Below are positions 3,925 to 23,348 of a stretch of DNA of 35,751 nucleotides, piece after piece (within the stretch, counting starts at the first letter, position 1; every line of letters begins with the position of its first letter). The translations under genes were made by a program, and so were the position numbers. The notes under the pieces are model-generated. The model saw only the letters and a program-made list of their open reading frames with translations. It was not told where the DNA came from and did no database searches. The stretch is taken from positions 1-35,751 of the forward strand of contig JABABK010000035.1 in the NCBI GenBank assembly GCA_014238285.1, in the 5' to 3' direction. Origin of the DNA: Hellea sp. (lineage in GTDB: Bacteria > Pseudomonadota > Alphaproteobacteria > Caulobacterales > Maricaulaceae).

Positions 3925-3957
3925 GTATGTATCATTTGAGTTAGAAAATGCACAAAA

Positions 3958-3987
3958 ATCGTAATAAAGCCAAGAAAATATTGCGCA
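3958..3987. promoter_or_regulatory. Candidate steroid-regulon operator, copy 1
   Basis: ATCGTAA (3958-3964) and TTGCGCA (3981-3987) are separated by 16 bases, the exact geometry of the elements at 15374, 18855 and 20507. It sits between the divergent flavoprotein gene and the SDR-MFS-hydrolase operon. The left half departs from TGCGTAA at two positions, making this the weakest of the four 30-bp copies. Confidence 0.5.
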
Positions 3988-4030
3988 GTCCTGTCGATTT
4001 GCTAAAGTTTCTCGAGAAGCGGAGGAATCT

Positions 4031-4903
4031 ATGAGCAAACCACAAATCGCATTGGTCACTGGCGCAAGCCGGGGAGCGGGCAAGGGCATTGCCCTAGGTC
4101 TCGCCGAAAAAGGTATGACGGTCTATGTGACGGGGCGAACCAAAACTGTCGGAACGGATAAAGGCTGGCATGGAACGGTGTTACCTGGCTCAGTTGCCGA
4201 GACCGCGCAGCAATGCACAGAGGTGGGCGGGAAAGGTATTCCGGTGATTTGTGATAGTTCTGATGATACTGAGGTCGAGAAGCTATTTGAGCAGATCATG
4301 GAAGAGCAGGGGCGGCTGGATGTCTTGTTCAACAACGCCACTTTCATACATCACCAATTGATTGAACCAAAACCGTTTTGGGAAAAAGAATTAGCCGCAC
4401 AAAAGATCCTCGATGTGGGGCTTCGCTCCGCCTATGTGGCGAGCTGGCATGCGGCAAAAATCATGGCAGAGCAAAAATCAGGCTTAATCGCCTTTGGATC
4501 ATCCTTTGGCGGGACTTGTTATATGCACGGAGCCGCTTACGGCGCACAAAAGGCAGGGGTTGATAAATTCGCCCATGATATGTCCGTTGATCTAGAACCG
4601 TTTAATGTGCAGGCTGTTTCCATCTGGATGGGGCCCCTTAAAACAGAGCGGGCCTCGCAGGCGGCTGAGGTGCACCCCGACCAGTATAAGGATTTGATGG
4701 CAGTAGCAGAGAGCCCGCAATTTACGGGTCATATAGTGCACGCGATTGCTAATGATCCGAAGGCGCAGGAATTAAGTGGTCAGGTTCATATCGGGGCAGA
4801 AATTGCTAAACGTTATGGCCTTAAAGATGATGGCAAGGAGCCACCATCCTATAGAGAGATGCTCGGCGCGCCGCCTAACTTTAGTGAAGCCAAAGTATAT
4901 TAG
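4031..4903 (+). CDS. SDR-family oxidoreductase, DHRS1-like
   Basis: A 290-residue short-chain dehydrogenase with the cofactor motif T-G-A-S-R-G-A-G-K-G (10-19), N-N-A (101-103), a serine at 157/158 and Y170-x-x-x-K174. T-G-R-T after the second strand suggests NADP(H) preference. Overall it resembles the DHRS1 group, whose mammalian member reduces steroids and other carbonyls. GGAGG at 4021-4025, five bases before the ATG, supports the start. It is first of three genes (MFS begins two bases after its stop) and shares a promoter region with the ketosteroid dehydrogenase, so a hydroxysteroid dehydrogenase role is likely but the position acted on is unknown. Confidence 0.82.
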   Translation: MSKPQIALVTGASRGAGKGIALGLAEKGMTVYVTGRTKTVGTDKGWHGTVLPGSVAETAQQCTEVGGKGIPVICDSSDDTEVEKLFEQIMEEQGRLDVLFNNATFIHHQLIEPKPFWEKELAAQKILDVGLRSAYVASWHAAKIMAEQKSGLIAFGSSFGGTCYMHGAAYGAQKAGVDKFAHDMSVDLEPFNVQAVSIWMGPLKTERASQAAEVHPDQYKDLMAVAESPQFTGHIVHAIANDPKAQELSGQVHIGAEIAKRYGLKDDGKEPPSYREMLGAPPNFSEAKVY

Positions 4904-4905
4904 AG

Positions 4906-6048
4906 ATGACGCAAACTAAAAGCCTAATGCCGATTATCATCGCTGTGTCGATGGTATCAGCTATTGGGGGATTGGTTTTTAATACGATGCCATTATTGCT
5001 CGGCGCGATTGGGACTGAATTTGGCTTCGAATCTGATAAGCTAGGAAGTTTATCGTCTAATGCCGGGTGGGGCTATCTTATTGGGACGATATCTGCGCCT
5101 TTTTGGGTCGATAAGGTAAACTGGAAGATCGCAGCCTTGGCCTTTGCTTTATTTGCTGTTGTGACATTTCTGTTTATCAGTCAGTCACCGCCTTCGTCCA
5201 TGGTTTGGAGCTTTGGTGTTTATGGCTTCGCTTGTGCTTTAGCCATTGGACTCGCCACGCGAGTGCTAGCGGACATGCCGGATTTAGAGCGCGCATATGG
5301 CACGCGATTATCTGTAGAGCTTTGGTCAATTGCAGCATTTCTTTATGTCTTACCAGTCTATTTTATAGCCAAGGGCGGGTTTAGTGGAGCTATGGTTGGC
5401 ATGGCTGTTTTCACAGGGCTTTTAGGATTAGGCGCCGGCTTATTCCCTAAGCGAACAACCACTGGCGAAAAAGTCAAATATCCCACTTGGGCAGAAGCGA
5501 GCCGAGGCTGGATTTTGGTCGGGATTTTCCTGCTCTACCTTTTAGTGAACGTCGCCTTGTTTTTCTTCCTCGCGGTAATCGCGCAAAACTATAATCCAAG
5601 TGATAAGGAAATCGGATTGATGTTTCTTGTCTTAAAGTGGCTTGGCGGCGGAGCAGGTGCTGTCGGGGCGATCATCGGTATGCGGGCAGGGTTCAAGCCG
5701 CCCCATTTTATTGCACTGATAATTTTACTGGCGGGGTTGGCTGGCATGTGGCTTGCGCCCGATTTCAAAATTTTTATGGTTTCATCCTGGATTTGGGAAG
5801 TCGGTTTCACTTTGGGGTGCCTCTACGCGACCACGGCCATAACGCGCTTTGACCCGTCGAAAAAACTTGTTGTGCTTGTGCCGGCCACCTTTGGCATATC
5901 CATGGTTTTAGGCGGTAAAATAGGAGGTAAATTATTAGCATCTGGAGACCCTGCTCCGATATATTTTGCAGCAGCTCTTGGGGCCCTGTTACCAGCTCTA
6001 TTTATTCTTGTGTCAAAAGCGCCAAAGATGTCAGTCGGTGCGGCATGA
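4906..6048 (+). CDS. MFS transporter
   Basis: A 380-residue protein with about twelve hydrophobic segments, typical of the major facilitator superfamily in the inner membrane. The N-terminal half contains the S-N-A-G-W-G-Y-L-I-G type helix 2, and a hydrophilic stretch near residues 180-195 separates the halves. It lies two bases after the SDR gene and overlaps the following hydrolase gene by four bases (ATGA). The operon context suggests it imports a steroid or the product released by the exported hydrolase; substrate and direction cannot be read from sequence. Confidence 0.82.
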   Translation: MTQTKSLMPIIIAVSMVSAIGGLVFNTMPLLLGAIGTEFGFESDKLGSLSSNAGWGYLIGTISAPFWVDKVNWKIAALAFALFAVVTFLFISQSPPSSMVWSFGVYGFACALAIGLATRVLADMPDLERAYGTRLSVELWSIAAFLYVLPVYFIAKGGFSGAMVGMAVFTGLLGLGAGLFPKRTTTGEKVKYPTWAEASRGWILVGIFLLYLLVNVALFFFLAVIAQNYNPSDKEIGLMFLVLKWLGGGAGAVGAIIGMRAGFKPPHFIALIILLAGLAGMWLAPDFKIFMVSSWIWEVGFTLGCLYATTAITRFDPSKKLVVLVPATFGISMVLGGKIGGKLLASGDPAPIYFAAALGALLPALFILVSKAPKMSVGAA

Positions 6049-7166
6049 AAATAATGGGTGCTATAGCTTTGGCTTTATGTGCCGCGATTGGCTTTTCCGC
6101 CTGTCATAAAACGTCCAGTGATATCAAGTCCAAGGAAACAAGAGCTTCACTCCCGTTGCCGCCATTTCCAGATTACCCGAAGCCGCAATCAGAGCTAACC
6201 GCGGATCAGTCTGGTGTCATTTATTACCCGACTAATAGCCCGTATGATTTTTCAAGGGTTTTGCATGGTTTTGACAAGGCAACACCAACGATTGGCAAGG
6301 GAACGCTAGTCTTACCGCAAGAAATGAATGCGGATGCGCCAGTCCCAGCCATGATTATCATGCATGGCAGCGGAGGGATAAAAAAGGGCCGTGAATTTAC
6401 CTATGCCGCGCTTTTTGCGAAAAATGGCATAGCGTCATTCGTGCTCGATTATTATGGTCCTCGCGGCGTAACGAATGAAACACCCTATGTGATGAAGACT
6501 ATGGCGACAACAGAAGTTGATATCATGGCCGATGCCTATGCAGCATTAAAGGTTTTAGGAACCCATCCTGCTATTGACTCAAGCCGGATTGGTATAACTG
6601 GCTACTCCTATGGCGGTATGGGTACGCGCTATGTACTGGATAAACGTCTAAAGGCTATTATGGCGCCGAATGTTCCGCCATTTGCGCTTCATATGGATAT
6701 TTACGGCCCTTGCCATCAAAATACAGGTCGTTGGAATACGACGGGCGCCCCATATCTTGCTATTTACGGCGATAGCGATAATTCCGTTGATCCTGTCAAA
6801 TGCGCCGAGGTTCAAGATAAGCTTCGCGAAGGCGGCAGTGTCGTCGAGGCTCATATAATTCAGGGCGCAGGCCATGCTTGGGAAAACGCTTCGCCTTTAA
6901 GTGAATTTGGCGGTGCTTATGTGACGGGTTGTGACTTTTCATGGGATGCGGAAACCGGCGAGTTCTTGGTAAATGGTAAATCCGGCAAATTTCAGTCAGA
7001 TCAAGATATGACCCGTGAGCAGCGCGCTGCTGTTAGGGCAGGGTTAGGTGAATTGGCCGGCGGCTGTATTGGACAAGGTTACACAGTTGGCAATAACCCT
7101 GTTGCAGATAAAAAGAGTAAGACGCTGCAGCTGGATTTTATGAAACGTCACTTCAAATTACTTTAA
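6045..7166 (+). CDS. Exported dienelactone-hydrolase-family lipoprotein
   Basis: A 373-residue alpha/beta hydrolase. The first 20 residues are a signal peptide ending in the lipobox-like F-S-A-C, with Cys20 as the likely lipidated residue. The fold shows H-G-S-G-G (107-111, oxyanion region), the nucleophile elbow G-Y-S-Y-G-G with Ser188, Asp243 or Asp245 in Y-G-D-S-D, and His277 in G-A-G-H-A-W. This matches the secreted dienelactone hydrolase family. It overlaps the MFS gene by four bases. An envelope-anchored esterase co-expressed with a transporter and an SDR could release a steroid from an ester or conjugate before uptake; the substrate is inference. Confidence 0.8.
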   Translation: MKIMGAIALALCAAIGFSACHKTSSDIKSKETRASLPLPPFPDYPKPQSELTADQSGVIYYPTNSPYDFSRVLHGFDKATPTIGKGTLVLPQEMNADAPVPAMIIMHGSGGIKKGREFTYAALFAKNGIASFVLDYYGPRGVTNETPYVMKTMATTEVDIMADAYAALKVLGTHPAIDSSRIGITGYSYGGMGTRYVLDKRLKAIMAPNVPPFALHMDIYGPCHQNTGRWNTTGAPYLAIYGDSDNSVDPVKCAEVQDKLREGGSVVEAHIIQGAGHAWENASPLSEFGGAYVTGCDFSWDAETGEFLVNGKSGKFQSDQDMTREQRAAVRAGLGELAGGCIGQGYTVGNNPVADKKSKTLQLDFMKRHFKLL

Positions 7167-7244
7167 ATATATCGAAAAACAATAAATAATTTGCTTTAAT
7201 CAATATGTATGTTACAGCTCTTGCGAAAGCAAAGGAGCGTAATC

Positions 7245-7949
7245 ATGTCAAATGTTCAAGAATTAGACTTACAAAATATCGCTCGAACCACAGGTTGGCT
7301 TCTTTTAACGAGTATTGTTATTGGGATATTGACGGCGATGCTATTCGCTCAAGGTATCGATATAAACTTATCCGGTGACGTGATTGCCACAGCCGAGAAT
7401 ATGCTCGGTGCAGAAAGCCGTCTCCATGCAAAAGCTTATATGGGCGTATTTTTGTTTGCGCTGGATGTATTGGTTACTGTCGGGTTTTTTCTACTTCTAA
7501 AAAACCATGGCAGATTACTGGCGCAATCAAGCCTTTATATCAGTCTTGGCGGCGCTATTTTAATGCTGCTCGGCACGGTATTTGCTATGAACGCGGCACA
7601 AATCGCAGGGAATGCTGCCTACCAAACATTGGCGGATGCTGATCAAAGGCAGCTTTTAGCGGGCTTACAGGCCACATCCGATTATACGTCTTTTCATCTT
7701 GGCCTCATCCTAACGACCGCTGCGAAGGCAGGGTTTTTCTATCTTTTCTTACGCTCAGGTCTCTTGCCAAAAGTTATTTCCGGATGGGGTGTATTTGCGT
7801 CCCTTTTTGTAGTTGTAACAATTATTACGCGGGACTTCATTCCAGCGCTTGGACACAATGGAATAACGGCGGCGTTTATGATTTCAAACCTGATAGCTAT
7901 TGTTGTGACTGGGCTTTATTTAGGTGTAAAGGGCGTAAGAACGTCTTAA
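7245..7949 (+). CDS. DUF4386-family membrane protein
   Basis: A protein of about 234 residues with six to seven hydrophobic segments and the general pattern of DUF4386 membrane proteins (R-T-T-G-W-L-L-L near the N-terminus, R-L-H-A-K-A-Y-M-G-V in the middle). Function is unknown. The start is placed at 7245 because AAGGAG (7232-7237) sits seven bases upstream; an in-frame ATG at 7209 lacks such a site. Its last four bases overlap the end of the convergent hydroxylase gene, with no terminator between them. It lies 78 bp after the hydrolase operon, so it may or may not be co-transcribed. Confidence 0.75.
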   Translation: MSNVQELDLQNIARTTGWLLLTSIVIGILTAMLFAQGIDINLSGDVIATAENMLGAESRLHAKAYMGVFLFALDVLVTVGFFLLLKNHGRLLAQSSLYISLGGAILMLLGTVFAMNAAQIAGNAAYQTLADADQRQLLAGLQATSDYTSFHLGLILTTAAKAGFFYLFLRSGLLPKVISGWGVFASLFVVVTIITRDFIPALGHNGITAAFMISNLIAIVVTGLYLGVKGVRTS

Positions 7950-8755
7950 TCTCCCGGCGGACCAAAAACCGTTTTTCCAAAGTTTCGCCAAGCGGATTTT
8001 TGGGTGAGGTCTTTGCCAATATCGCGAAATTCATGCAGAGCGATGACAAAGGGGTTATAGCTTTTGATGTTTTTGGTAAGACCGTATTTGACGGTTTCTT
8101 GTTCTTGTTCAAATGTCCCAAAGAGCTTGTCCCAAATGATCAGAAAATTAGCGTAATTTTTGTCGATATATTGCGGATTAGATCCGTGATGTGCGCGGTG
8201 ATGGGAGGGCGTGACGACGATATGTTCGAGCGGGCCTAAAGACCTTATTTGTTCGGTATGGGTCCAAAAACCGTAGACGGTGAGCGCCGACCCCACGGCT
8301 AAAATAGCGAGGGGATCGAACCCGATCAGTGGCAGTGTCCAATAAAAAAATGGTTTGGATAATGGTCCGAACCAGGACTGGCGCAGCGCGGTGCCAAGGT
8401 TCATATGTTCACTGGAATGGTGCGCTACATGGATGGCCCATAAAATTCGTATCCGGTGGGAGGCGCGGTGATACCAATAGAATACAAAATCGATGGCAAT
8501 GGCGAGCCCGATTAGACCCATCCAATTCATTGTAATGTCAAAGAGACGAAACTGATAAACCCAATAATAGAAGACGAGAATTACGCCTTGGGTCGTGAGC
8601 AGCATGACGATGTTTCCAGCCAGCTGTGACATGCTGCCGCCGAAATCTTTCAGGGCGTAGGCTTGTTGCTTGCGACGTGCGGAGATAAAAACTTCAGCCA
8701 ATATCAAAAAGGCGAAAATCGGTAGGACAAATATTTTTGGATCGATATAGTCCAT
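7946..8755 (-). CDS. Sterol desaturase/fatty acid hydroxylase family protein
   Basis: A 269-residue membrane di-iron oxygenase. The histidine clusters are present in order: H-R-A-S-H (96-100), H-V-A-H-H with a following H (109-117) and H-H-R-A-H-H (185-190), among four to five membrane segments. Members hydroxylate or desaturate sterols, carotenoids, alkylglycerols or fatty acids. The ATG overlaps the TAA of an SDR remnant (TAATG, 8753-8757), so it was once the second gene of an SDR-hydroxylase pair. Its place beside steroid genes is suggestive, but lipid modification is equally possible. Confidence 0.85.
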   Translation of the reverse strand: MDYIDPKIFVLPIFAFLILAEVFISARRKQQAYALKDFGGSMSQLAGNIVMLLTTQGVILVFYYWVYQFRLFDITMNWMGLIGLAIAIDFVFYWYHRASHRIRILWAIHVAHHSSEHMNLGTALRQSWFGPLSKPFFYWTLPLIGFDPLAILAVGSALTVYGFWTHTEQIRSLGPLEHIVVTPSHHRAHHGSNPQYIDKNYANFLIIWDKLFGTFEQEQETVKYGLTKNIKSYNPFVIALHEFRDIGKDLTQKSAWRNFGKTVFGPPGD

Positions 8756-8891
8756 TACGCCGTACAGGCTCCGCCGTTAAGTGAAACGGTCTGCCCGGTC
8801 ATCCAGCGCCCGCGAGCGCCTTGACGATACCAAGTCCCATGCCTTGGCCCGCGCCGGTAACGAGGGCTGTTCTGTCTGATAAATTGAACAT
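8755..8891 (-). pseudogene. Remnant of an SDR gene with internal deletion
   Basis: Starting at ATG 8891, the frame gives a perfect SDR N-terminus with T-G-A-G-Q-G-M-G, then hits TGA after about 30 codons. In another frame immediately after comes a classical SDR C-terminus, G-R-W-M-T-G-Q-T-V-S-L-N-G-G-A, ending at TAA 8757-8755. The roughly 200 codons between, including the catalytic Ser-Tyr-Lys region, are missing. GGGAG upstream of the ATG and the TAATG overlap with the hydroxylase gene remain. This is best read as an SDR gene collapsed by an internal deletion with a frameshift. Confidence 0.85.
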
Positions 8892-9063
8892 GTGATGTCT
8901 CCCGAATATATGGCTTTATTGGTACTTGGGGGACACAATTTGGTCAATGCTTGTTTCCTATGCCTATGTCCCAAATCACCCGCTCATCCTCGCGCAAGTG
9001 GAGAACCAGATTCAACGTATTAATAATTCCTGACGAGCTAATTGCCGCAACCACTGTTCTGGA

Positions 9064-9081
9064 TTCCCGCCTACGCGGGAA
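9064..9081. repeat. REP-like palindrome
   Basis: TTCCCGC-CTAC-GCGGGAA forms a 7-bp stem with a 4-base loop. The flanking C-T-G-G-A-T-T-C-C-C-G-C-C wording resembles dispersed intergenic palindromes common in proteobacterial genomes. It lies in the 8892-9162 spacer, in which I see no gene. Confidence 0.6.
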
Positions 9082-9162
9082 GGAGCGGAGGTGGGAGACG
9101 CCATAACCCGTTTAGTTTTGCCGCCGTTTATGGTATGTGCATTTTTCATATAAGGGGCACTC

Positions 9163-9771
9163 ATGAAAAATATAGCGATATCGTCAAAGATTTTTTTGGC
9201 TTTAATAGTCGGGCTTGGAGCGGGTTGCGGGGAAACAAAACAGGTCGCGCCGTCTTCTGTGGAGATTGAAGTTGTGCAAGAGGAAAAACTCCAACCTGCC
9301 ACGCTCGAACCGGCTGTCGAAACTTCAAAACCAAAGCCTAAACCAATGCTTGAGCCTAAACTTGAGCCTGCGCCTACGCCAGTATCGCCGCCAAAGGTTA
9401 TGGGTTTATACGCATTTGACGCCTTTAATCCTGGCGGCGGAAAATCGAGGACCATAGTCATTGATCGCCGAACTGCCCCGTCAGGGCACGGCGTTGCCAC
9501 GCTGCAAATCGAGAGAAGCAGCTCCACCACATTGATGGACATAGGGTTTGACTGCGCCGCCGAGCGTTATGCCTATCTCTATATGGACCATAATGCCGGA
9601 ACCGTCGACGCGGCTAAAATGGCTAAAGTGCAAGGGTTTTCTGATCGGCAACTTAGCGCATTCCAGACAGGCGAGGCCTTACAGCGACTGACGTTTTCTG
9701 ACCTAAACACTATGCCCCCAGAAGATATTGAGCACTTCCGCAAAATAATGGCTATCAGTTGCGCGCCTTAA
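9163..9771 (+). CDS. Exported proline-rich protein, probable lipoprotein
   Basis: A 202-residue protein of unrecognised family. Residues 1-21 are a signal-type hydrophobic segment ending G-A-G-C, a non-ideal lipobox with Cys22. Residues 45-75 form a Pro/Lys/Glu-rich linker with repeated K-P-K-P and L-E-P units. The C-terminal half (about 80-202) looks globular, with two cysteines (in D-C-A-A and S-C-A-P) that could form a disulfide. AGGGG (9153-9157) precedes the ATG. The layout suggests an envelope-anchored domain spaced from the membrane by an extended linker. No function is proposed. Confidence 0.65.
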   Translation: MKNIAISSKIFLALIVGLGAGCGETKQVAPSSVEIEVVQEEKLQPATLEPAVETSKPKPKPMLEPKLEPAPTPVSPPKVMGLYAFDAFNPGGGKSRTIVIDRRTAPSGHGVATLQIERSSSTTLMDIGFDCAAERYAYLYMDHNAGTVDAAKMAKVQGFSDRQLSAFQTGEALQRLTFSDLNTMPPEDIEHFRKIMAISCAP

Positions 9772-9777
9772 ACTACT

Positions 9778-9889
9778 CGCTCACCCCGCTGAAGAGCGGG
9801 GCCCAAGCTATGGTTGAGATCGTCTATTTTTTAAAATCACTATTGCCTTGAATTGAGCGTGGATACCGCTCTTCAGCGGTATGAGCGAA
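9778..9889. repeat. Pair of inverted REP-like hairpins
   Basis: The first unit, CGCTCA-CC-CCGCTGAAGAGCGG (9778-9799), recurs in inverted orientation at 9864-9887 as CCGCTCTTCAGCGG-TA-TGAGCG. Each unit folds into its own hairpin (stem CCGCT/AGCGG, extended by flanking bases), and together they bracket about 65 bp. This is the layout of a REP doublet between two genes. It may also act as the 3' end of the transcript of the upstream gene. Confidence 0.6.
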
Positions 9890-9952
9890 GTGGGGATATG
9901 ATTGCATTGCTGTGCAGGCCGTGGCACAAATCTAAAAACTAAGGATTCTGCC

Positions 9953-11794: not shown

Positions 11795-11795
11795 T

Positions 11796-12347: not shown

Positions 12348-12368
12348 GCTGCGTAAACCAATTCGTAG

Positions 12369-12400
12369 GGCGTATAGAGGGCGGAAGCCCGAAATGCGCC
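12369..12400. repeat. Imperfect intergenic palindrome
   Basis: GGCGTAT (12369-12375) pairs with ATGCGCC (12394-12400, one G-T pair), and GGGC-GGAA-GCCC (12379-12390) forms the inner stem. The wording, GTAGGGCGTAT...ATGCGCCG, resembles a widely dispersed bacterial intergenic repeat type. Confidence 0.5.
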
Positions 12401-12488
12401 GTGGCTAAGTGTTTCTGCCAATGGGGGATAACGCTTTCGAATCTATCCTCTCTTTACGGTATTCATTCATTTCCCCCACACTTCGCTC

Positions 12489-12509
12489 ATCCCAAACTTG
12501 ATTTGGGAT
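12489..12509. repeat. REP-like hairpin
   Basis: ATCCCAAA-CTTGA-TTTGGGAT gives an 8-bp perfect stem with a 5-base loop. It is preceded by CGCTC, also found at the start of the 9778 unit, and followed by CCAG, typical of proteobacterial REP-type elements. Confidence 0.55.
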
Positions 12510-12679
12510 CCAGTTTATGGGTTTCAATTGATGGTGAGGGATGTGTCCTGACTATTGCAGCTGGGTCCGGTTTTTCAACGGAATGAGTGGAAAAAAGGGG
12601 AGCAATCAGTATTAGGATTTGAATATGATGACGCCTATATTGGCGTCTCGGTGATTACTATAGCTAATTTTGTTTCATA

Positions 12680-12739
12680 TGAAATCGTCAGAATTTCTCA
12701 TAATACCTGCGTGAAATCGGCCAAATTTCTCATAATGCC
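12680..12739. repeat. Two 28-bp direct repeats at 32-bp period
   Basis: The segments 12680-12707 and 12712-12739 agree at 24 of 28 positions. They begin TGAAATCG and share the exact 13-mer AATTTCTCATAAT followed by a purine and CC. The 32-bp period is about three helical turns. They lie downstream of the convergent SDR gene end with no evident promoter alongside. Confidence 0.65.
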
Positions 12740-12787
12740 GATCTGTCAGGTGGGGGCTGGGGAAGAAATTGGCAATTATAGAGATAG

Positions 12788-13540
12788 CTAACCCACAAAC
12801 ACTTGACCGCCGTCAAGGGCAATCGTTTGTCCTGAAAGATAGCTCGCTTCGTCCATACACATCATGGCGACGAATGCCCCAATATGTTCTTCGCATTCCC
12901 CGACATAACCAAGCGGAATAGATTTCTGGAATTTTTCGGCCTCTGCCGGGTTGCGCTCCATCCATCCGGCAAGGGCCGGGGACTTGGCGTGAGGCATGAT
13001 GGCGTTGACCCTGATGCCGTCTTTGCCCCATTCATTGGCGGCGGCGCGCGTGATTTGCTGCGTGGCGGCTTTGACGGCAGCATAGACCCCGTAATTGCCA
13101 ACGTCCCAGCGTTTCATAACAGAGCTAAGCAGATTGACCACATGGCCTTTAGTTTCTTTAAGGTGAGGATAAGCCATTTTCATCAGCCTGAAAGTGGCCA
13201 TTGGGCCCGACTGAAAATTACCATTAAATTCATCATCGGAAATGGATAAAAGCGGGCCGAGCTTCACTTCCTGAGCATTATTGACCAAGACATCAAGTTG
13301 CCCAAATTCAGCAATAGTCGCATCAAGTGCCGCTTTTAAATCGGCTTCGGATTTGACGTTACACCTGATAGCAATGGCTTTAACGCCGCGCTCTCTAATC
13401 AAGTCAGCACTTGTTTTGCATTTATCCAGCGTCCGGCCAGCCACGGCAATATTGACACCCTTGGCCGCAAGGGCGAGGGCGATGCCTTGTCCTACACCGC
13501 TTCCTGCGCCTGTGATGAGCGCTGTTTTTCCGTCTAGCAT
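12788..13540 (-). CDS. SDR-family oxidoreductase
   Basis: A 250-residue classical SDR: T-G-A-G-S-G-V-G-Q-G (10-19), N-N-A-Q (87-90), catalytic serine at 139/140, Y153-x-x-x-K157, and a C-terminal S-G-Q-T-I-A-L-D-G-G. The Q after N-N-A and N-Y-G-V-Y before the catalytic Tyr are slightly unusual. The start is placed at 13540 because AAAGGGG lies eight bases upstream; ATG 13546 would leave only two. It is the last gene of the hydratase-hsaB-SDR operon, following hsaB by 13 bp, so a hydroxy-steroid or hydroxyacyl-CoA dehydrogenase role is likely. Substrate unknown. Confidence 0.82.
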   Translation of the reverse strand: MLDGKTALITGAGSGVGQGIALALAAKGVNIAVAGRTLDKCKTSADLIRERGVKAIAIRCNVKSEADLKAALDATIAEFGQLDVLVNNAQEVKLGPLLSISDDEFNGNFQSGPMATFRLMKMAYPHLKETKGHVVNLLSSVMKRWDVGNYGVYAAVKAATQQITRAAANEWGKDGIRVNAIMPHAKSPALAGWMERNPAEAEKFQKSIPLGYVGECEEHIGAFVAMMCMDEASYLSGQTIALDGGQVFVG

Positions 13541-13553
13541 TACCATAGCCCCT

Positions 13554-14504
13554 TTACCATAATTCTGGTATGTCTGATCCCGTGATATCGATCACTTTTT
13601 GTAGAAAACTGATGGCTCCCGACAGTTCGTCAGGGGTGAAGTGCTTTTTAATTTTCTCGTCAAGAGTTTTGGATTTGGCTAGAAAGCCCACGACAATATT
13701 ACGGCCTTGATCCGTGATGCTCACCTTTTCCGCTTCTATTTCAATCAAGGCTTTGCGCTCGAGGCGGTCAAAAATTTCTTTGTCCGGAATATGACCGGTG
13801 TGTTCTAAACGAGCGATAATATCGCCCTCGGCTAGGGCTCCGTTTATGGCCAAAGTGGACAGGCAGAAATACTCTGCTTCGGACAGGCCAATATTGCGGC
13901 CAGCTTGACGGACGGGGTGAGACGTTTGAAAGTGAGCGCGGGATATGAGGTAAAGCAGGAAGTTATCTGAGAAGGTTCCATCCGCTAAGTCTACACTAGG
14001 TTCAGTGGGGAGGTCGGATTTTGATTTGTTTTTCTTATCAGCGTATTGACCGCTATGAAAGACAAGTGGTGGTAGATTTTTTTCTTCAAAATCAATGACT
14101 TCTCCGACAAATATAATGTGATCGCCGCCTTCATATTGGAACTGTGTCTTGCACCTGAATAGAGCTGCGTATTCAGGTAATAGCGGAAAGCCTTGATCAC
14201 ATTTCCCCCAATCTACGCCTTCGAATTTACTGTCGCTTGAGCGGGCAAATTGATTGGATAGGTCGCTTTGATGGGAGGCCAATACATGGATATTAAACCC
14301 GCCGGACATTTGGTAGGCTGGCATTGATTGGGCTGTTTTGGCGAGGGACCAAAGAACCAAAGGCGGATCGAGAGAGACAGAATTAAAGCTGCTGGCTGTC
14401 ACGCCTATGGGAGTAGCCTCATCCTCCATTGTCGTCACAATGGTGACGCCCGTCGCGAATTGCCCCAAAGCATTTCTGAACTGTATGGCGGTTGGTAGGC
14501 TCAT
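13554..14504 (-). CDS. hsaB: HsaB: flavin reductase with C-terminal MarR-like domain
   Basis: The 316-residue reductase partner of a two-component monooxygenase. Residues 5-152 are the flavin-reductase domain (F-A-T-G-V-T-I-V-T, G-V-T-A-S-S-F-N-S-V-S-L-D-P-P, G-G-D-H-I-I-F-V-G-E-V). Residues about 180-316 are a winged-helix MarR-like domain. Actinobacterial HsaB has only the first part (roughly 190 residues). The two-domain layout is known from the p-hydroxyphenylacetate hydroxylase reductase C1 of Acinetobacter, where the extra domain tunes NADH oxidation in response to substrate. It would supply reduced flavin to HsaA at 20575, encoded on the other strand 6 kb away. It lies between a crotonase and an SDR gene in one operon. 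Confidence 0.85.
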   Translation of the reverse strand: MSLPTAIQFRNALGQFATGVTIVTTMEDEATPIGVTASSFNSVSLDPPLVLWSLAKTAQSMPAYQMSGGFNIHVLASHQSDLSNQFARSSDSKFEGVDWGKCDQGFPLLPEYAALFRCKTQFQYEGGDHIIFVGEVIDFEEKNLPPLVFHSGQYADKKNKSKSDLPTEPSVDLADGTFSDNFLLYLISRAHFQTSHPVRQAGRNIGLSEAEYFCLSTLAINGALAEGDIIARLEHTGHIPDKEIFDRLERKALIEIEAEKVSITDQGRNIVVGFLAKSKTLDEKIKKHFTPDELSGAISFLQKVIDITGSDIPELW

Positions 14505-14521
14505 TTTAAGTAACTCATGAT

Positions 14522-15361
14522 TTATCCAAATAACTTTGCACGTTGTTCAAGTGCGGCTTTCATACCTTGCTCTCTGACCGTTTTGAAGAAGGCCCGAAAT
14601 GTCGGACTTTGATGAAACTCGGCATCGAGTATAGCAGCTTGATGGGAAGACTTGGTAATGTCCATATTGTCGTAAAAATTATTAGCAGATTGTTTGAGAA
14701 TTATAAGGTGATCGACGGGAGTTTTGGCGATGTCTTGTGCCAGCTCTTGCGTAAACTCGTCTATGGTATCAGGCGAAGTAACATGGTTGATCAGGCCAAG
14801 CGAGAGAGCTTCATCCGCGCCGATAGACTTGGATGTGTATAGTAGTTCTTTGGTTTTGCGCATGCCGATTAAATGAGGCCAAAAGAATAAAGTCGGCGGA
14901 ATTCCAAGGTCGCGTCCCGCAGGATGACCAAAGCTGGCATCGTCCGTGGCAACCACGATATCGCAAGCCGCGAGAAGTTCGCCGCCGCCCGATAGGCAAG
15001 CGCCGTGGACCTGCGCGATGATGGGTTTGGGAAAGCGCCACATAGCGAGCCAGTAGTCGAGGAGTTTGACGATGTCTTTTTCGTCTTGTTCTAGATCAAC
15101 ACCGTCGGGGAAATTGGCAGGATATTGGGACGTAATCCAATCTTCCTCATTAAGGTCATAGCCAACGCAAAACGCTCGCCCCGAGCTTTTAATCCGAACC
15201 ACTGATACATCCGGATCGTCTTTGGCTTGATCCAATACGGCTTTGAGCTCGTCGAGTAATTGCTGTGACAAAGCATTAAGCCGTTTGGGGCGATCAAGCG
15301 TGATCGTCAGGATTTTGTCCTTGGTATCTGTCAGTATGGTGATGTATGTCTGAGCAGACAT
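14522..15361 (-). CDS. Enoyl-CoA hydratase/isomerase family protein
   Basis: A 279-residue crotonase-fold enzyme. The oxyanion-hole segments are G-R-A-F-C-V-G-Y-D-L (61-70) and G-A-C-L-S-G-G-G-E-L (120-129). Glu128 corresponds to the first catalytic glutamate of classical hydratases. The second glutamate position, in F-G-H-P-A-G-R-D-L-G (144-153), is not acidic. ATG 15361 is chosen because the C-terminus-like extension upstream from 15421 runs through the operator, and AAGG lies upstream of 15361. It is first in the operon with hsaB and is preceded by the best copy of the 30-bp element. A beta-oxidation step on a steroid-derived acyl-CoA is likely; the exact step is not assignable. Confidence 0.83.
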   Translation of the reverse strand: MSAQTYITILTDTKDKILTITLDRPKRLNALSQQLLDELKAVLDQAKDDPDVSVVRIKSSGRAFCVGYDLNEEDWITSQYPANFPDGVDLEQDEKDIVKLLDYWLAMWRFPKPIIAQVHGACLSGGGELLAACDIVVATDDASFGHPAGRDLGIPPTLFFWPHLIGMRKTKELLYTSKSIGADEALSLGLINHVTSPDTIDEFTQELAQDIAKTPVDHLIILKQSANNFYDNMDITKSSHQAAILDAEFHQSPTFRAFFKTVREQGMKAALEQRAKLFG

Positions 15362-15373
15362 TAAATACCTTAG

Positions 15374-15403
15374 TGCGTAAAATTTATACCATAAATTTAC
15401 GCA
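15374..15403. promoter_or_regulatory. Candidate steroid-regulon operator, copy 2 (best)
   Basis: TGCGTAA (15374-15380), 16 bases, TTACGCA (15397-15403): perfect inverted 7-mers, with symmetry extending inward (TGCGTAAA...TTTACGCA). It begins 12 bp upstream of the hydratase ATG on the minus strand. A further lone half-site, TGCGTAA, is at 15437-15443. Confidence 0.7.
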
Positions 15404-15454
15404 AATAGGCATCTTTGTCAAAGAAAAATAGCAATATGCGTAATTTTTTGGGAA

Positions 15455-16375
15455 TTAATCTTCTAAAAACTTGTCTTTAAGCTTCTGTCGGGTTTCATCG
15501 TCGATTTCAAGACCATCTCTGAAGAAACCATCAATTGACCCATATCTGCTTTCCATTTCCGCGAAGGTCGCTTCAATGGTCTCTTGGCTGACGCCTAGGA
15601 TCTTCCGAAACAGTGCCTCATCGATATTGCCGGGGATTTTCTTGTCGATCTCCGCGATCCGGGCGGTGTTGTAGTCTTCAAGGACTTTATTGCTCAATAG
15701 GAAATCTTGCTGGACTGTTTCCTTTGGGACACCAATGGCCAGCAGGAATATTGCGCCGCCAAAGCCCGTGCGATCCTTGCCTGAGGTGCAATGAAACAAA
15801 TGCGGCGTCGCATCGTCATTGGCTAGCTCCGCTAACCATTGACCCCAATAGCTCCGATGGGATGAGTTAGTGATAAAGCGGCGATGATCGAGCAAATCAG
15901 ATATCTCTGCGTCTGTGATCTTGCCCATGACAATGCGCTTGCCCAGAGCCCTTATATCAACGGGACGATCATTGATTGGCAGAACTTGATATTTGCTGCC
16001 GGGATAATTGGCAGGAATTCTATCGGGTTCCTGAATACGTTCTGGTTCGCTGCGAAGGTCTGTTATGGCGCGAATGCCGAGGTCCGCGAAAGCGCTCATG
16101 CCTGCGCTATCAAGGTGAGCTAAGCTATCTGATCTGTAGACCATATTCCATTTAACGGTTTTCCCGTCTGCGGTTTTATAGCCGCCCATGTCGCGAAAGT
16201 TCTTTGTGCCGGGAATGGACAAAAGACGGATGCCTTGGGAGTTGAATTTAGCGAGATGTTGGGTTGGAATGATATGGGTCACGGCTTCGGTTTCGCCGCC
16301 GCGTTTATAGGCGATAAAAAGACCGAGGCTTATGCCAATGAGGAGTAATAAAAGAGTGACTAGTAATCGTTTCAT
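15455..16375 (-). CDS. Membrane-anchored tyrosine phosphatase-like protein
   Basis: A 306-residue protein with one N-terminal membrane segment (about 3-22) and a periplasmic catalytic domain. N-F-R-D-M-G-G (59-65), D-L-R-S-E-P-E-R (106-113) and the P-loop H-C-T-S-G-K-D-R-T-G (195-204, nucleophile Cys196) define the Tyr_phosphatase_3 / DSP-like family, which acts on phosphotyrosine or phosphoinositide-like substrates. It is the last gene of the SDR-SnoaL-MFS operon, 14 bp after the MFS stop. Its link to steroid metabolism is unexplained; hydrolysis of a phosphorylated substrate before transport is one speculative role. Confidence 0.85.
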   Translation of the reverse strand: MKRLLVTLLLLLIGISLGLFIAYKRGGETEAVTHIIPTQHLAKFNSQGIRLLSIPGTKNFRDMGGYKTADGKTVKWNMVYRSDSLAHLDSAGMSAFADLGIRAITDLRSEPERIQEPDRIPANYPGSKYQVLPINDRPVDIRALGKRIVMGKITDAEISDLLDHRRFITNSSHRSYWGQWLAELANDDATPHLFHCTSGKDRTGFGGAIFLLAIGVPKETVQQDFLLSNKVLEDYNTARIAEIDKKIPGNIDEALFRKILGVSQETIEATFAEMESRYGSIDGFFRDGLEIDDETRQKLKDKFLED

Positions 16376-16389
16376 TGGAGTTCCTAATA

Positions 16390-17595
16390 TTAGATTCTGG
16401 GTTTTGTTCTAACAAATATCATGACGAATGCGGCTAGGGCAGCGACGGGAATTAAGGCCTTAAAGGCTTGCTCGTAACTACCGTTTTGATCATAGGAAGC
16501 GCCGACAAAACCCATAGCGATGACGGCTAAGAATACTGTGATTAAATTCATCATGCCGATTGCCGGCGCAAAATGCTCACGTCCAAATGTGTCTGCCGTA
16601 ATGCTGGTCCACACAGGGTAGATGCCTCCAATGGCAATGCCCACGCATGTGGCGACAATAAGGAGCGTTATGAATTTTGTCGCCAGTATGGCTGTCAACA
16701 AGAAGGCGATGTTTGACGCGCAGACGAGGGCGAACACCCATCTTTTATCAAACCGTTCTACCATCCAGCCGATGGCGAGTTTGCCTAATATAGCCGAACC
16801 TGCGACGACTGTAGGAATTAGTGTCGCTTGCGTGTTGGTGAAACCAAGGTCTTCACCGAATGGTTTTAGGGAAATGAGTAGGGCTTGATCGCATCCTAGT
16901 AAGAGTCCGCAGGCTAGCCCTATGATCCAAAAATCTCTATTTTTCAATATTTTGGAAGGGTTTATTGCCACGATTTCTTCAATCACGGTTTCCGAAGCCC
17001 CGTCCGGATATTGGCCGATATCTTCGGGCCTAGAAATAAAGTATTTGAGGATAAGCGCCGTGGCTATGACTGCGATAGAAATGCCCATGATTAGAAGGGC
17101 TTGACGCCAGCCTTTAGTCTCAATCAAATGACTAAATATAGGCTGTATTAAAAAACCGCCGGCGGATGTTGAAACGGCAGCGATACCAAGGGCTCGGCCG
17201 CGCAATTTATAAAACCAATTCGTGGTCAGCGCGTTGGACATGAATGGTCCGCAGGCGGTAAAGCCAAATCCAATCGGAAGGGCGATGACCCATAGCATTT
17301 GTTTTGGCGATTGCATTTGAGACAAGGCGATGAAGCCCACCGCGAACGCAAAAATACCGATCAGAGCCAGCGGCCTTGGATTAAATTTACGCAGATTACT
17401 GCCAACGATGGCCGCCCAGATGGCCGCGCTAAGAAGAAACACCATCATGCCAATATTTGTCTGTTCGCGACCTAATCCAAATTCGGCTTCAATAGGGGAA
17501 ACGAAATGCTGGAAGGAATAAAAAGTTGCGCCGGCCATAAGCATAGCTGTGATGAAACTTGCCCCTAAAACATGCCACCCTCGAAAGGAGATCAT
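16390..17595 (-). CDS. MFS transporter, monocarboxylate/OFA-like
   Basis: A 401-residue transporter with twelve probable membrane segments and the pattern of monocarboxylate-porter or oxalate/formate-type MFS proteins: short N-terminus, R-G-W-H-V-L-G-A-S-F in helix 1, L-R-G-R-A-L-G-I-A between helices 4 and 5, and a cytoplasmic loop around residues 190-210. Its ATG overlaps the SnoaL-like gene by four bases. Located in an operon under the 30-bp element, it is a good candidate for uptake of a steroid acid or export of an intermediate. Direction and substrate are not visible. Confidence 0.83.
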   Translation of the reverse strand: MISFRGWHVLGASFITAMLMAGATFYSFQHFVSPIEAEFGLGREQTNIGMMVFLLSAAIWAAIVGSNLRKFNPRPLALIGIFAFAVGFIALSQMQSPKQMLWVIALPIGFGFTACGPFMSNALTTNWFYKLRGRALGIAAVSTSAGGFLIQPIFSHLIETKGWRQALLIMGISIAVIATALILKYFISRPEDIGQYPDGASETVIEEIVAINPSKILKNRDFWIIGLACGLLLGCDQALLISLKPFGEDLGFTNTQATLIPTVVAGSAILGKLAIGWMVERFDKRWVFALVCASNIAFLLTAILATKFITLLIVATCVGIAIGGIYPVWTSITADTFGREHFAPAIGMMNLITVFLAVIAMGFVGASYDQNGSYEQAFKALIPVAALAAFVMIFVRTKPRI

Positions 17596-18065
17596 CGGAA
17601 ACTCTTGAGATTAGATTTCAGTAAATCTTGAGTTTTTTCTTCACCCATCACGCGGCTCTCACGCCGAGCGATTTTCCAGATGTTGTCGTCCTTTTTCATA
17701 TCCCATTTGTTAAAAGCGAGGCGCATCAAAACAGGCATACCGTCGTTTTTATTATAAACGCGGGAATAGCCTAATACGCTAGCGCTTTCGCCCGTAACTT
17801 TAACCACCAATGGTCCGACAGTATGGGCGCAATTAGGTAGGAGGGACTGATGCATATCCGATGATAGCATGTTGCGAATAGCCTTATGTCCGACAAGTTC
17901 AAGGTCATCTGCTTCACCGTCACGACCAGCGCGCGGGCTGCTGACCACATAAACCGCGTCTTTCATATGGCAAGCTAGCGCCGTATCAATATCGCCGCAA
18001 TCTGCCGCCAGGCCATAAAGGCCTATGACATTGCGAATGGCGAGCTCTGCTTCTACGGCGTTCAT
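17592..18065 (-). CDS. SnoaL-like / NTF2-fold protein
   Basis: A 157-residue protein with the NTF2/SnoaL_4 pattern: N-terminal helix (A-I-R-N-V-I-G-L-Y-G-L-A-A-D-C-G-D), D-A-V-Y-V-V strand, then H-T-V-G-P-L-V-V-K-V and W-K-I-A-R-R-E-S-R-V near the end. The fold is shared with ketosteroid isomerase, scytalone dehydratase and small subunits of ring hydroxylases. Tyr17 may align with the isomerase active-site tyrosine, but I do not see the isomerase catalytic aspartates, so isomerase activity is not supported. It lies four bases after the upstream SDR gene and overlaps the MFS gene. A hydratase, isomerase or binding role on a steroid intermediate is plausible. Confidence 0.78.
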   Translation of the reverse strand: MNAVEAELAIRNVIGLYGLAADCGDIDTALACHMKDAVYVVSSPRAGRDGEADDLELVGHKAIRNMLSSDMHQSLLPNCAHTVGPLVVKVTGESASVLGYSRVYNKNDGMPVLMRLAFNKWDMKKDDNIWKIARRESRVMGEEKTQDLLKSNLKSFR

Positions 18066-18069
18066 TTGA

Positions 18070-18828
18070 TTATTGGCCCAGCTTATGGGCTGCTTCAGCG
18101 ATTTTTAGAAAACTTGGCGGTTCGCCCCCGCCGTGGACTTCAAGGCATGCACCTGAAACGTAGCTGTTATCAGGATTGGCTAAGAAAAGACAGGCTTTGG
18201 CGATATCGCCGGGTTTTGCCATACGTCCCATGGGCAATGAGTCTGATAGATGGGCCATGCCTTTATCGCCCCCGTAATGGTCGGCGCTGGCTTCTGTTTC
18301 AACTAATCCAGCAATGATGGCGTTGACCCGAATGTTCGGGGCCCACTCCATGGCGAGTGATGTGGTGACGTTGAGGAGGCCTGCTTTGGCCGCGCCGTAC
18401 GCCATGGAACCGGGTGACGACCGGGTCGCAGAAACACTGGAAATGTTGATAATGGAACCACCGGACTCACTTAACGCCTCATAGGCAGCTTGAGATAAGT
18501 AGATGGGAGCCAAAAGATTTAGTTTTACGACGGCCTCGGTTAGGCGAGGGCTGGCATCTTTGGAGGCAATAGGCGGGCCGCCGCCGGCATTGTTGATAAG
18601 GCAGTCGATGCGTCCTGTTTTTTCAAGGGCAAAATCGATCAGAGCTTTGGCGGCGTCGGCCTCTCTGATGTCGAGCGCAGTAAAATAGGCATTTTCAGGG
18701 ATGTCGATGAGGTCTCGCCGTCCGCAAATAATGACTTTGGCGCCTTGATCCAAAAAGGTTTGGACAATACCGCGCCCAATGCCGCGGCTGCCCCCGGTGA
18801 CGATAATCGTTTTATTTTCAAAAATCAT
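18070..18828 (-). CDS. SDR-family oxidoreductase
   Basis: A 252-residue classical SDR: T-G-G-S-R-G-I-G-R-G (11-20), N-N-A-G-G-G (79-84), catalytic Ser130/131, Y144-x-x-x-K148, and V-S-G-A-C-L-E-V-H-G-G-G at the C-terminus. G-R-R after the second strand favours NADP(H). It heads the minus-strand operon, divergent from fadD3 across a 111-bp region containing the 30-bp element. Pairing with fadD3 makes an IpdF-like 5-hydroxy-HIP-CoA reductase or a hydroxysteroid dehydrogenase the leading ideas, but sequence alone does not decide. Confidence 0.82.
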   Translation of the reverse strand: MIFENKTIIVTGGSRGIGRGIVQTFLDQGAKVIICGRRDLIDIPENAYFTALDIREADAAKALIDFALEKTGRIDCLINNAGGGPPIASKDASPRLTEAVVKLNLLAPIYLSQAAYEALSESGGSIINISSVSATRSSPGSMAYGAAKAGLLNVTTSLAMEWAPNIRVNAIIAGLVETEASADHYGGDKGMAHLSDSLPMGRMAKPGDIAKACLFLANPDNSYVSGACLEVHGGGEPPSFLKIAEAAHKLGQ

Positions 18829-18854
18829 AAGGACTCACATCAGGAATCGTATTG

Positions 18855-18884
18855 TGCGTAATATTTCTAGGCATATGTTGCGCA
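18855..18884. promoter_or_regulatory. Candidate steroid-regulon operator, copy 3
   Basis: TGCGTAA (18855-18861), 16 bases, TTGCGCA (18878-18884) lie between the divergent SDR and fadD3 genes. An extra TGCGTAA at 18918-18924 lies 15 bp before the fadD3 ATG. Half-site spacing is identical to the copies at 15374 and 20507. Confidence 0.68.
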
Positions 18885-18939
18885 AAATGCTCGAAATGTA
18901 TAGTCAAACTGTCTTAATGCGTAAAAAAACTGGTGATTC

Positions 18940-20451
18940 ATGACGACTATCCCTCAGCTTGTATTTGATCAAGCCGCTAAAAAGCCAAAAGCTTTGGCTA
19001 TTAAAGATGGGAATATTGCCTATAGCTATGCCGATCTGGCGGCTCGCGTGCAAAAGACCGCTGGCGCCATGAAGGCATTAGGGCTTGGCAAAGGGGATCG
19101 ATTCGCTATTTGGGCGCCAAATTGCGCTGATTGGATCGTTGTGACACTAGCCGGTCAGATGTTCGGCGCGATCATGGTGACGCTCAATACCCGTTATAAA
19201 GGCACTGAGGCGGCGGACATTTTAAGCCGCGCTAACTGTAAAGTGCTGTTCACCGTTAAAGGCTTTTTGGGACTTGATTACCCAGCTATGCTAGAGGGGC
19301 AAAAGATTGAATGTCTCCATCATATTGTTTTGCTCAAGGATGATCAAAACCCAGATGTGTTTGATAGCTTTATTGGCGGGGCTGAACCTGTAACGCAGAT
19401 CGCGGCCAATTCGAACGATGTATCTGACATAATCTTCACGTCGGGGACTACTGGCGCTCCCAAGGGAGCGATGACTAATCATGGCCAGAATGTTGAAGTA
19501 TTTCAGGCTTTCACTTCAGCAATTGGTATGAATGGAGATGATCGGTATCTAGTGGTCAATCCGTTCTTTCATAGTTTTGGTTATAAAGCTGGCTGGCTGG
19601 CATGTTTAGTAGTCGGCGCTGCGATCTATCCGCTGGCAGTATTTGATCCCAAGGCTGTGCTTGAGCAAATAGAGCGCGATAAAATATCTGTTATGCCGGG
19701 GGCGCCGACAATTTTTCAAACGCTTTTGGCCCATGCGGATTTAAAGAAACATGATATTTCCTCGCTTCGTGTCGCGACGACAGGCGCAACAACAATTCCT
19801 GTCGATCTTATCCGGCGAATGAATGAGGACTTAGGGATTGATGATGTCTTCTCAGCCTATGGACTTACTGAATCTACGGGTGTTGTCAGTCTTTGCCGCA
19901 AAGGCGATGATTTTGCCACGATCGCAACGACTTGCGGTCGACCTTTGCCTGGCACGGAGTTGCAAGTCACCGACGATGATGGTGTGGCTGTGGCTTCCGG
20001 CGAAACGGGCGAAATTTGGGTGCGAGGCTTTAATGTCATGCAGGGCTATCTTGATAATCCTGCTGCAACCTCAGAAGCGATAACCCGTGATGGTTGGCTC
20101 AAAACAGGGGATATTGGAGTTCAGGACGCGCAAGGCTATATTAAAATCACGGATCGCAAGAAGGATATGGTGATTGTCGGCGGATTTAACTGCTATCCGG
20201 CGGAGATCGAAAAAATGCTTCTGCAGCATCCAGATATTACCGATGTAGCTGTTGTCGGCATACCTGATGAGAGGCTTGGGGAGGTGACGGTTGCTCACAT
20301 TGTGTTGAGCGGCGAGCTGACAGAATCAGATGCGATTGTTTGGTGCCGTGAGCATATGGCGAATTATAAAGTACCGCGCTCTGTTAGGTTTCATCAGGCT
20401 CTCCCGCGCAATGCCTCTGGGAAAGTGCTGAAATTTCAGCTTAAATCTTGA
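18940..20451 (+). CDS. fadD3: FadD3: HIP-CoA ligase
   Basis: A 503-residue acyl-CoA synthetase close in length and sequence pattern to mycobacterial FadD3, which forms the CoA thioester of HIP, the ring C/D fragment of steroid degradation. Motifs: I-F-T-S-G-T-T-G-A-P-K-G (165-176, phosphate loop), N-P-F-F-H-S-F-G-Y-K-A-G (207-218), Y-G-L-T-E, T-T-C-G-R-P, G-W-L-K-T-G-D, D-R-K-K-D-M hinge, and the catalytic lysine Lys495 in R-N-A-S-G-K. It is a single-gene unit between two copies of the 30-bp element. The FadD3-like pattern (L-N-T-R-Y, G-Y-K-A-G-x-L-A-C-L) makes the specific call well supported. Confidence 0.88.
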   Translation: MTTIPQLVFDQAAKKPKALAIKDGNIAYSYADLAARVQKTAGAMKALGLGKGDRFAIWAPNCADWIVVTLAGQMFGAIMVTLNTRYKGTEAADILSRANCKVLFTVKGFLGLDYPAMLEGQKIECLHHIVLLKDDQNPDVFDSFIGGAEPVTQIAANSNDVSDIIFTSGTTGAPKGAMTNHGQNVEVFQAFTSAIGMNGDDRYLVVNPFFHSFGYKAGWLACLVVGAAIYPLAVFDPKAVLEQIERDKISVMPGAPTIFQTLLAHADLKKHDISSLRVATTGATTIPVDLIRRMNEDLGIDDVFSAYGLTESTGVVSLCRKGDDFATIATTCGRPLPGTELQVTDDDGVAVASGETGEIWVRGFNVMQGYLDNPAATSEAITRDGWLKTGDIGVQDAQGYIKITDRKKDMVIVGGFNCYPAEIEKMLLQHPDITDVAVVGIPDERLGEVTVAHIVLSGELTESDAIVWCREHMANYKVPRSVRFHQALPRNASGKVLKFQLKS

Positions 20452-20506
20452 AAAATACCTCATAAACTACGCAAAACAGCATTTTTGATGCATTTATTTA
20501 TCAAAA

Positions 20507-20536
20507 TGCGTATTAAATCGCATTGATTACTGCGCA
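20507..20536. promoter_or_regulatory. Candidate steroid-regulon operator, copy 4
   Basis: TGCGTAT (20507-20513), 16 bases, CTGCGCA (20530-20536) lie 38 bp upstream of the chosen hsaA start and are the only such signal ahead of the long hsaA-to-fadE operon. A lone right half-site CTACGCA is at 20467-20473. Confidence 0.65.
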
Positions 20537-20574
20537 TTAGCTGTTAGTTTGAGAAAAAACGAATGGAGATATTT

Positions 20575-23341: not shown

Positions 23342-23348
23342 GGTCGAA

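Follow-up and report, generated by a model that had tools for sequence, protein, structure and literature searches.

An alternating operator array and a tandem Lrp/AsnC pair as its probable reader in a putative steroid-degradation regulon of Hellea sp.

The window analyzed here comprises positions 1 to 35,751 of contig JABABK010000035.1 (assembly GCA_014238285.1) of Hellea sp., a member of the Maricaulaceae (Alphaproteobacteria). The promoter regions of its steroid-type degradation genes share an alternating array of half-sites, R-N33-F-N16-R, in which F is TGCGTAA and R is TTACGCA, and which reads F-N16-R-N33-F in the opposite direction. Comparison of sequences suggests that the array is probably a shared control site of the steroid genes of some marine bacteria, forming the operator of one dedicated regulon. 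Its reader is probably a tandem pair of Lrp/AsnC proteins, which would wrap the promoter and repress it until released by a steroid-derived ligand. The array repeats every 63 bp, equal to six helical turns, and is 70 bp long with three half-sites and 92 bp long with four. An earlier note on this DNA had described a 30-bp operator consisting of two inverted half-sites with 16 bases between them, a unit that proved too small since the palindrome is only part of the 70-bp or 92-bp array. The arrays of the window are as follows.

3896..3987, no strand assigned: four-half-site array F3896-N15-R3918-N33-F3958-N16-R3981, between the divergent flavoprotein gene (minus strand) and SDR-MFS-hydrolase genes (plus strand).
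15374..15443, minus strand: three-half-site array F15374-N16-R15397-N33-F15437, all three half-sites exact, upstream of the hydratase/HsaB-like/SDR operon (probable start codon 15361).
18855..18924, no strand assigned: array F18855-N16-R18878-N33-F18918, between the divergent SDR gene (minus strand) and fadD3-like gene (plus strand), conserved in aligned upstream regions.
20467..20536, plus strand: array R20467-N33-F20507-N16-R20530, upstream of the hsaA-like operon (start 20563).

All palindromes listed in the earlier note were borne out. Relative to TGCGTAA-N16-TTACGCA, the N16 palindromes at 15374-15403, 18855-18884, 3958-3987 and 20507-20536 carry 0, 1, 3 and 3 mismatches, respectively, and the 29-bp N15 variant at 3896-3924 carries 2; the individual half-sites of the array at 3896..3987 have up to 2 mismatches each. 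The half-sites at 15437, 18918 and 20467, previously regarded as lone, are present but not solitary, since a spacer of exactly N33 joins each of them to its palindrome; N33 likewise separates the palindromes at 3896 and 3958. The order R-N33-F-N16-R was seen in most rows of the hsaA upstream alignment. The other rows of the hydratase alignment are not orthologous upstream regions. Outside the four promoter regions only two pair matches were detected in the window, at 14834 (N15) and 7196 (N33), with 3 mismatches each. Thus, the absence of sites at the accessory genes holds except for the loose N33 pair at 7196.

Chance repeats or ordinary promoter elements would be the simplest source of such sites. 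The palindromes at 3958 and 20507, two of the four with N16, are weak and with three mismatches fall below the limit of two used for the genome scan, so that neither would stand alone, a point that counts against an operator. The scan of the own genome (3.74 Mb, 168 contigs, up to two mismatches, with the reversed pattern as control) revealed pairs that by themselves are only modestly enriched, at 17 vs 9 in the control for N16, 14 vs 9 for N15 and 14 vs 4 for N33. Nevertheless, shuffled sequences, controls with the reversed pattern and the peaks in spacing exclude chance, the remaining probability of which is negligible. Dinucleotide shuffling of the window (200 runs) gave a mean of 0.00 N16 pairs (maximum 0) and 0.01 N33 pairs with no more than one mismatch, compared to 2 observed of each, and a mean of 0.01 three-part arrays (maximum 1) with no more than three mismatches, compared to 2 observed. 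The three-part pattern gave 85 matches vs 5 for its reversed control in 61 genomes comprising the own genome and 60 relatives. The matches were spread over 13 of the 61 genomes, with a single match each in G028 and G030 and two or more array matches in ten related genomes. All 10 three-part matches in G010, a single contig of 3.45 Mb, lie inside 48 kb, and all 8 matches in G021 lie inside 54 kb.

Since regions fetched with the motif cannot test its spacing, loci picked by homology to the regulator proteins were used instead. The statistics are based on 18 loci (309 kb) consisting of L093 and the 17 of 23 regulator-homology loci that remained after exclusion of the five weak matches L084-L088 (22-40% identity) and the partial copy L082. 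The F-to-R distance of 23 occurred 28 times vs a mean of 0.83 per distance (next highest 4), the R-to-F distance of 40 occurred 22 times vs a mean of 0.70 (next highest 3), and the same-orientation distance of 63 occurred 29 times vs a mean of 1.59 (next highest 9). Among 74 three-part arrays, mostly from motif-fetched loci and counted over all loci used with at most three mismatches and only spacers of 32-34 and 15-16 searched, the spacer combinations were 33/16 in 55, 33/15 in 9, 32/16 in 6 and 34/16 in 4.

The distances of 23, 40 and 63 align the sites with the helical repeat as in Lrp/AsnC operators, an arrangement that would suit binding by the pair. Inverted half-sites form two kinds of dyad, and successive dyads are 31.5 bp apart, equal to three turns. 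The A/T content outside the half-sites of 53 distinct 33/16 arrays, mostly from motif-fetched loci, is periodic and strongest at 10.5 bp; 2000 column permutations and 500 row-wise shifts produced no phasing of that strength. The phased A/T tracts would fit bending or wrapping of the DNA around a protein.

The earlier note had proposed a single dedicated but unidentified regulator. The results support a dedicated regulon, and the regulator is very probably the Lrp/AsnC pair encoded at the left edge of the window. Two adjacent Lrp/AsnC genes are the only regulators recognised among the genes common to the clusters of G000, G010, G021, G035 and G009. The left edge of the window contains the following.

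1..90, plus strand: C-methyltransferase-like foreign fragment, not part of AsnC1 (PF08484 on residues 1-38 of the open reading frame 1-414, and comparison with AsnC1).
91..414, plus strand: AsnC1, C-terminal RAM part only (PF01037, 1.3e-13 on the open reading frame 1-414).
411..887, plus strand: AsnC2, complete, Lrp/AsnC family, candidate operator-binding protein (PF13404 2.4e-12, PF13412 4.1e-13, PF01037 1.4e-09).

Window bases 1 to approximately 90 are probably an assembly chimera at the contig end. The N-terminal helix-turn-helix (HTH) part of AsnC1 was found at the right end of contig C110 of the own genome (49 codons from L011:18421), the last 9 bases of which are identical to window positions 91-99. 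An AsnC-type HTH in AsnC1 is indicated by the match of the G009 orthologue (2.7e-11), and the HTH part on C110 was read by eye. The RAM domain (PF01037) is present in both AsnC2 and the product of the open reading frame 1-414. Profile searches of known structures, among 19 distinct sequences for AsnC2 and 16 for AsnC1, matched E. coli Lrp (2gqq; AsnC2 5.6e-15, AsnC1 2.0e-07) and LrpA (1i1g; AsnC2 9.9e-15, AsnC1 7.1e-12). Candidates of the NikR or IclR type, the sites of which have long spacers or several half-sites, were dropped once the conserved pair turned up, with no genome search made for either family. A CRP-like gene near the G010 cluster had no match among the compared loci, and a response regulator near the same cluster had only 29-30% paralogue matches there.

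The array is also located upstream of the pair itself. An R-N34-F-N16-R array begins 136 bp upstream of the AsnC1 ATG on contig C110, and arrays with at most four mismatches were found within 350 bp upstream of AsnC1 in 10 of the same 17 regulator-homology loci vs 0.01 expected from shuffles of the same stretches. AsnC2 was detected in 10 of the 61 genomes, with best matches per genome of 281-311 bits. HsaA was found in 8 of the 61, all of which have AsnC2 and arrays. The comparison of two or more array matches with AsnC2 (table 9/2/1/49) gave a Fisher probability of 3e-8, a value that overstates independence since relatedness was uncorrected.

Several results weigh against reading of the array by the pair. 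Arrays upstream of AsnC1 are absent from 7 of the 17 loci (L070, L072, L075, L076, L079, L080 and L081). The pair in L072, L076, L079 and L080 lies 3' of a CoA-ligase operon that has its own array; an opposite-strand gene intervenes in L076, L079 and L080, so that read-through would explain only L072. Genome G025 has AsnC2 and palindromes, with no exact three-part match and arrays only with N32. In genome G003, for which a completeness of 100% is listed, arrays and AsnC2 occur with no HsaA at the threshold used; its steroid pathway is perhaps partial. Arrays with no AsnC2 detected were found in G001 and G005, which are 77% and 82% complete. The latter two genomes would fit a reading in which the pair is a passenger of the cluster and another regulator, encoded elsewhere, binds the array. 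We regard a passenger role as unlikely, with no genome search made for other regulator families, considering the arrays upstream of AsnC1, the co-occurrence of arrays with the pair, an array geometry suited to an Lrp-type oligomer, the persistence of the palindrome next to divergent pairs of other orders and of a gammaproteobacterial genome, and the incompleteness of both exceptions.

The only other regulator gene recognised in the window encodes a TetR-type protein (1006-1617), the type to which the known steroid regulators KstR, KstR2 and EdcR belong (PMC8700777). No match to it was obtained at E 1e-6 in the other fetched loci (loci, not whole genomes), many of which have arrays, and its promoter has a different inverted repeat with arms at 1624-1643 and 1651-1670 and no close half-site. 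The TetR gene was therefore rejected as the regulator, being not conserved with the sites in the fetched loci and having a different repeat at its own promoter, and it is very improbable in that role. The repeat at 1624-1670, with 20-nt arms that are 85% complementary and 7 nt apart, is unrelated to the steroid array.

The genes downstream of the arrays in the window are listed below. The HsaA, HsaB and HsaD models scored below their cut-offs, so these names are given by best fit.

2202..3887, minus strand: FAD-dependent oxidoreductase (probable start 3887; PF00890; NF005511 above cut-off).
4031..7166, plus strand: SDR, MFS and hydrolase genes.
12788..15361, minus strand: hydratase, HsaB-like reductase and SDR genes (HsaB model 138 bits, cut-off 230).
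15455..18828, minus strand: SDR, SnoaL-like, MFS and phosphatase-like genes.
18940..20451, plus strand: FadD3-family acyl-CoA ligase (NF005801, 674.6 bits, cut-off 657).
20563..29888 (operon end approximate), plus strand: hsaA-like, hsaD-like and further ring-degradation genes (HsaA 326.6 bits, cut-off 450; HsaD 181 bits, cut-off 400).

The proposal of one dedicated regulon is upheld by sites at steroid-type genes on five further contigs of the own genome. These sites are at kshA (contig C142, L013; KshA_C domain), a kstD-like flavoprotein gene for which 3-ketosteroid dehydrogenase models fit best although below cut-offs (C140, L015), TonB receptor and SDR/SnoaL genes (C166, L012), an SDR/DUF1214 operon adjoining a sulfotransferase gene (C76, L014), and an OYE-like/MFS-CoA-ligase-KshA-like region (C110, L011). 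The earlier note had anticipated that a genome scan would find kshA and the regulator's own promoter, and sites were indeed found at kshA and upstream of the regulator gene at the end of C110. The genes around sites were compared in G010, G021, G035 and G009, with some promoters compared in G002, G006 and G007; G001 and G005 were outside the comparison. A strong array with 1 mismatch in G010 (L051 5583-5652) precedes genes without a match in the compared loci and may mark an extra branch of the regulon. Genome G006, listed with 8% contamination, contains two different copies of the fadD3/SDR array (L101 11133 and L104 2470), consistent with either a duplicated cluster or a mixed bin.

In the aligned upstream regions, the half-sites are located near start codons among conserved promoter-like blocks. 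A promoter scan identified the promoter-like sequence TTGACA-16-TAAATT (15421-15394, minus strand) inside the hydratase array, and in two Sphingobium loci F was seen by eye to be flanked by TTGACA and TATATA. Since the half-sites lie among promoter elements, repression by DNA wrapping is favoured. An Lrp-type oligomer, perhaps containing both proteins, would wrap promoter DNA on the array and keep RNA polymerase away from it; binding of a steroid-derived metabolite by the RAM domains would cause the oligomer to release the DNA or change shape. The effector of Lrp/AsnC proteins is usually an amino acid and the oligomer is often an octamer. Direct binding by the pair, wrapping, repression, a ligand and joint action of both proteins are what we infer from this arrangement.

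The pair could also bind the array and mainly activate, or act in either direction depending on the promoter. Sites of activators are usually upstream of promoter elements such as these, whereas the half-sites are near start codons, among promoter-like blocks and inside the one formal promoter, and between TTGACA and TATATA in the two Sphingobium loci. The promoter scan gave a candidate in only one of seven operator regions and none in the six others, which weakens the case for repression, leaving it to rest mostly on elements seen by eye, and would also fit weak, activator-dependent promoters. The scanner requires a final T, so TATATA cannot be scored. Activation, alone or combined with repression, occurs among other Lrp/AsnC proteins, and dual function is reported for Lrp-type regulators (PMC2995911, PMC10201364), which likewise tells against repression as the only mode. 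On balance, activation or dual control is a possible though rather unlikely alternative to the repression favoured here.

Wrapping by the pair would resemble that by the Lrp/AsnC proteins E. coli Lrp and AsnC, Pyrococcus LrpA and FL11, Sulfolobus Ss-LrpB and Acidianus Ah-BarR, which have the same two domains. Structural relatives of the pair include E. coli Lrp (2gqq), LrpA (1i1g), FL11 (1ri7) and AsnC (2cg4), and shared features are operators of several helix-phased sites and autoregulation. The candidate system differs in having steroid-degradation genes rather than amino-acid metabolism as targets, two tandem paralogues, and two strictly alternating spacers (16 and 33). Lrp-type regulators are reported to occupy groups of sites spaced by two or three helical turns and to wrap DNA (PMC2995911, PMC10201364). 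The half-sites described here are 23 and 40 bp apart compared to the usual 13-17 bp imperfect palindromes of Lrp (PMC2995911), and two spacing lengths within one Lrp-DNA complex had been unobserved before the case reported in PMC10201364, as stated in that paper.

Dedicated control of steroid genes by palindromic operators with autoregulation is a property of KstR, KstR2 and EdcR (PMC8700777), TetR-type proteins of another family than the candidate pair. The earlier note had considered the motif unlike the operators of KstR and KstR2. The EdcR operator TnnCnnTACnAnTnGTAnnGnnA is a compact palindrome, in contrast to the 63-bp repeating array (PMC8700777). Other proteobacterial regulators of steroid degradation are TeiR/TesR (LuxR type) and HsdR (LysR type) of Comamonas testosteroni, which belong to other families and are described as positive regulators, with no such array mentioned in the available text (PMC8399759, PMC6678751). 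Regulation in bile-acid-degrading Proteobacteria has been termed largely unknown (PMC8399759), and neither a regulator nor a motif is given for the Sphingobium clusters in the available text of PMC10653915. Two contiguous Lrp/AsnC genes, NCHOL11_RS15865 and RS15860, lie in the bile-salt cluster of Sphingobium sp. Chol11, and a role in amino-acid metabolism was suggested for them (PMC12882949). The Chol11 pair is likened here by description, not sequence, as two contiguous Lrp/AsnC genes in an alphaproteobacterial steroid-type catabolic cluster, and no operator is given in the available text of that paper (PMC12882949). A tandem Lrp/AsnC pair in a bile-salt cluster has therefore already been remarked on (PMC12882949); beyond that remark, searches of the open-licence literature brought up neither a description of the operator nor one of Lrp/AsnC control of steroid genes.

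The analysis puts forward a pair of candidate regulators, together with the exact operator and the promoters that it would target. Since the pair and sites are also present in the named isolates Hellea balneolensis DSM 19091 and Sphingobium herbicidovorans MH, the question is directly testable. If true, Lrp/AsnC control would extend to steroid carbon sources, and the system would supply components of steroid biosensors as well as a natural array on which DNA wrapping by an Lrp-type oligomer could be studied.

Among 385 genomes of the class that were searched, three more have the pair, in L093, L094 and L095. The pair in L093 (G209, another family) is 58-65% identical and TTACGCA-N33-TGCGTAA-N16-TTACGAA precedes its CoA-ligase operon, while L095 (G383) has one N16 palindrome. 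The gammaproteobacterial metagenome-assembled genome UWMA-0258 (L083) encodes an AsnC2 that is 41% identical and has TTCGTAA-N15-ATACGCA upstream of both AsnC1 and an HsaA homologue (61%). A plasmid search returned 300 records matching AsnC2, all with less than 60% identity, of which the loci of 8 were read. In Novosphingobium sp. KACC 22771 a KshA homologue (55%) has a perfect palindrome upstream, and a KstD-like gene (42%) adjoins a weaker array. The gene that occupies the hsaA position next to hsaC has one palindrome upstream in both Sphingobium sp. TomTYG65 and S. herbicidovorans MH, with the Lrp/AsnC pair at the far end of that gene run. The distance 23 occurred 10 times vs a mean of 0.54 in ten sphingomonad-type loci comprising eight plasmids, L094 and L095.

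The distant loci also provide evidence unfavourable to the pair as reader of the array. No palindrome was found in L094 (G304), L121 or L122, each of which encodes a homologue of the pair; two of the four palindromes of L117 (7609 and 28570), counted among the ten occurrences of distance 23, are inside open reading frames; and N33 was barely enriched in the ten sphingomonad-type loci (2 vs a mean of 0.61). Since distant loci keep the palindrome and rarely N33, the N15/N16 palindrome appears to travel with the pair and the N33 extension to be more restricted. We tentatively propose, with less confidence than for the operator itself, that the two Lrp/AsnC paralogues act jointly, perhaps as a mixed oligomer, to wrap promoters nucleosome-like on a two-spacing array in a steroid-responsive manner in steroid degraders belonging to several orders of Alphaproteobacteria and in one gammaproteobacterium or more, and that they may be the missing counterpart of KstR/KstR2. 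Separately, a single catabolic region of plasmid pNL2 of Novosphingobium aromaticivorans contains two such tandem pairs of Lrp/AsnC genes (L119 19435-20477 and 26804-27843), and tandem Lrp/AsnC pairs may be a wider sphingomonad theme.

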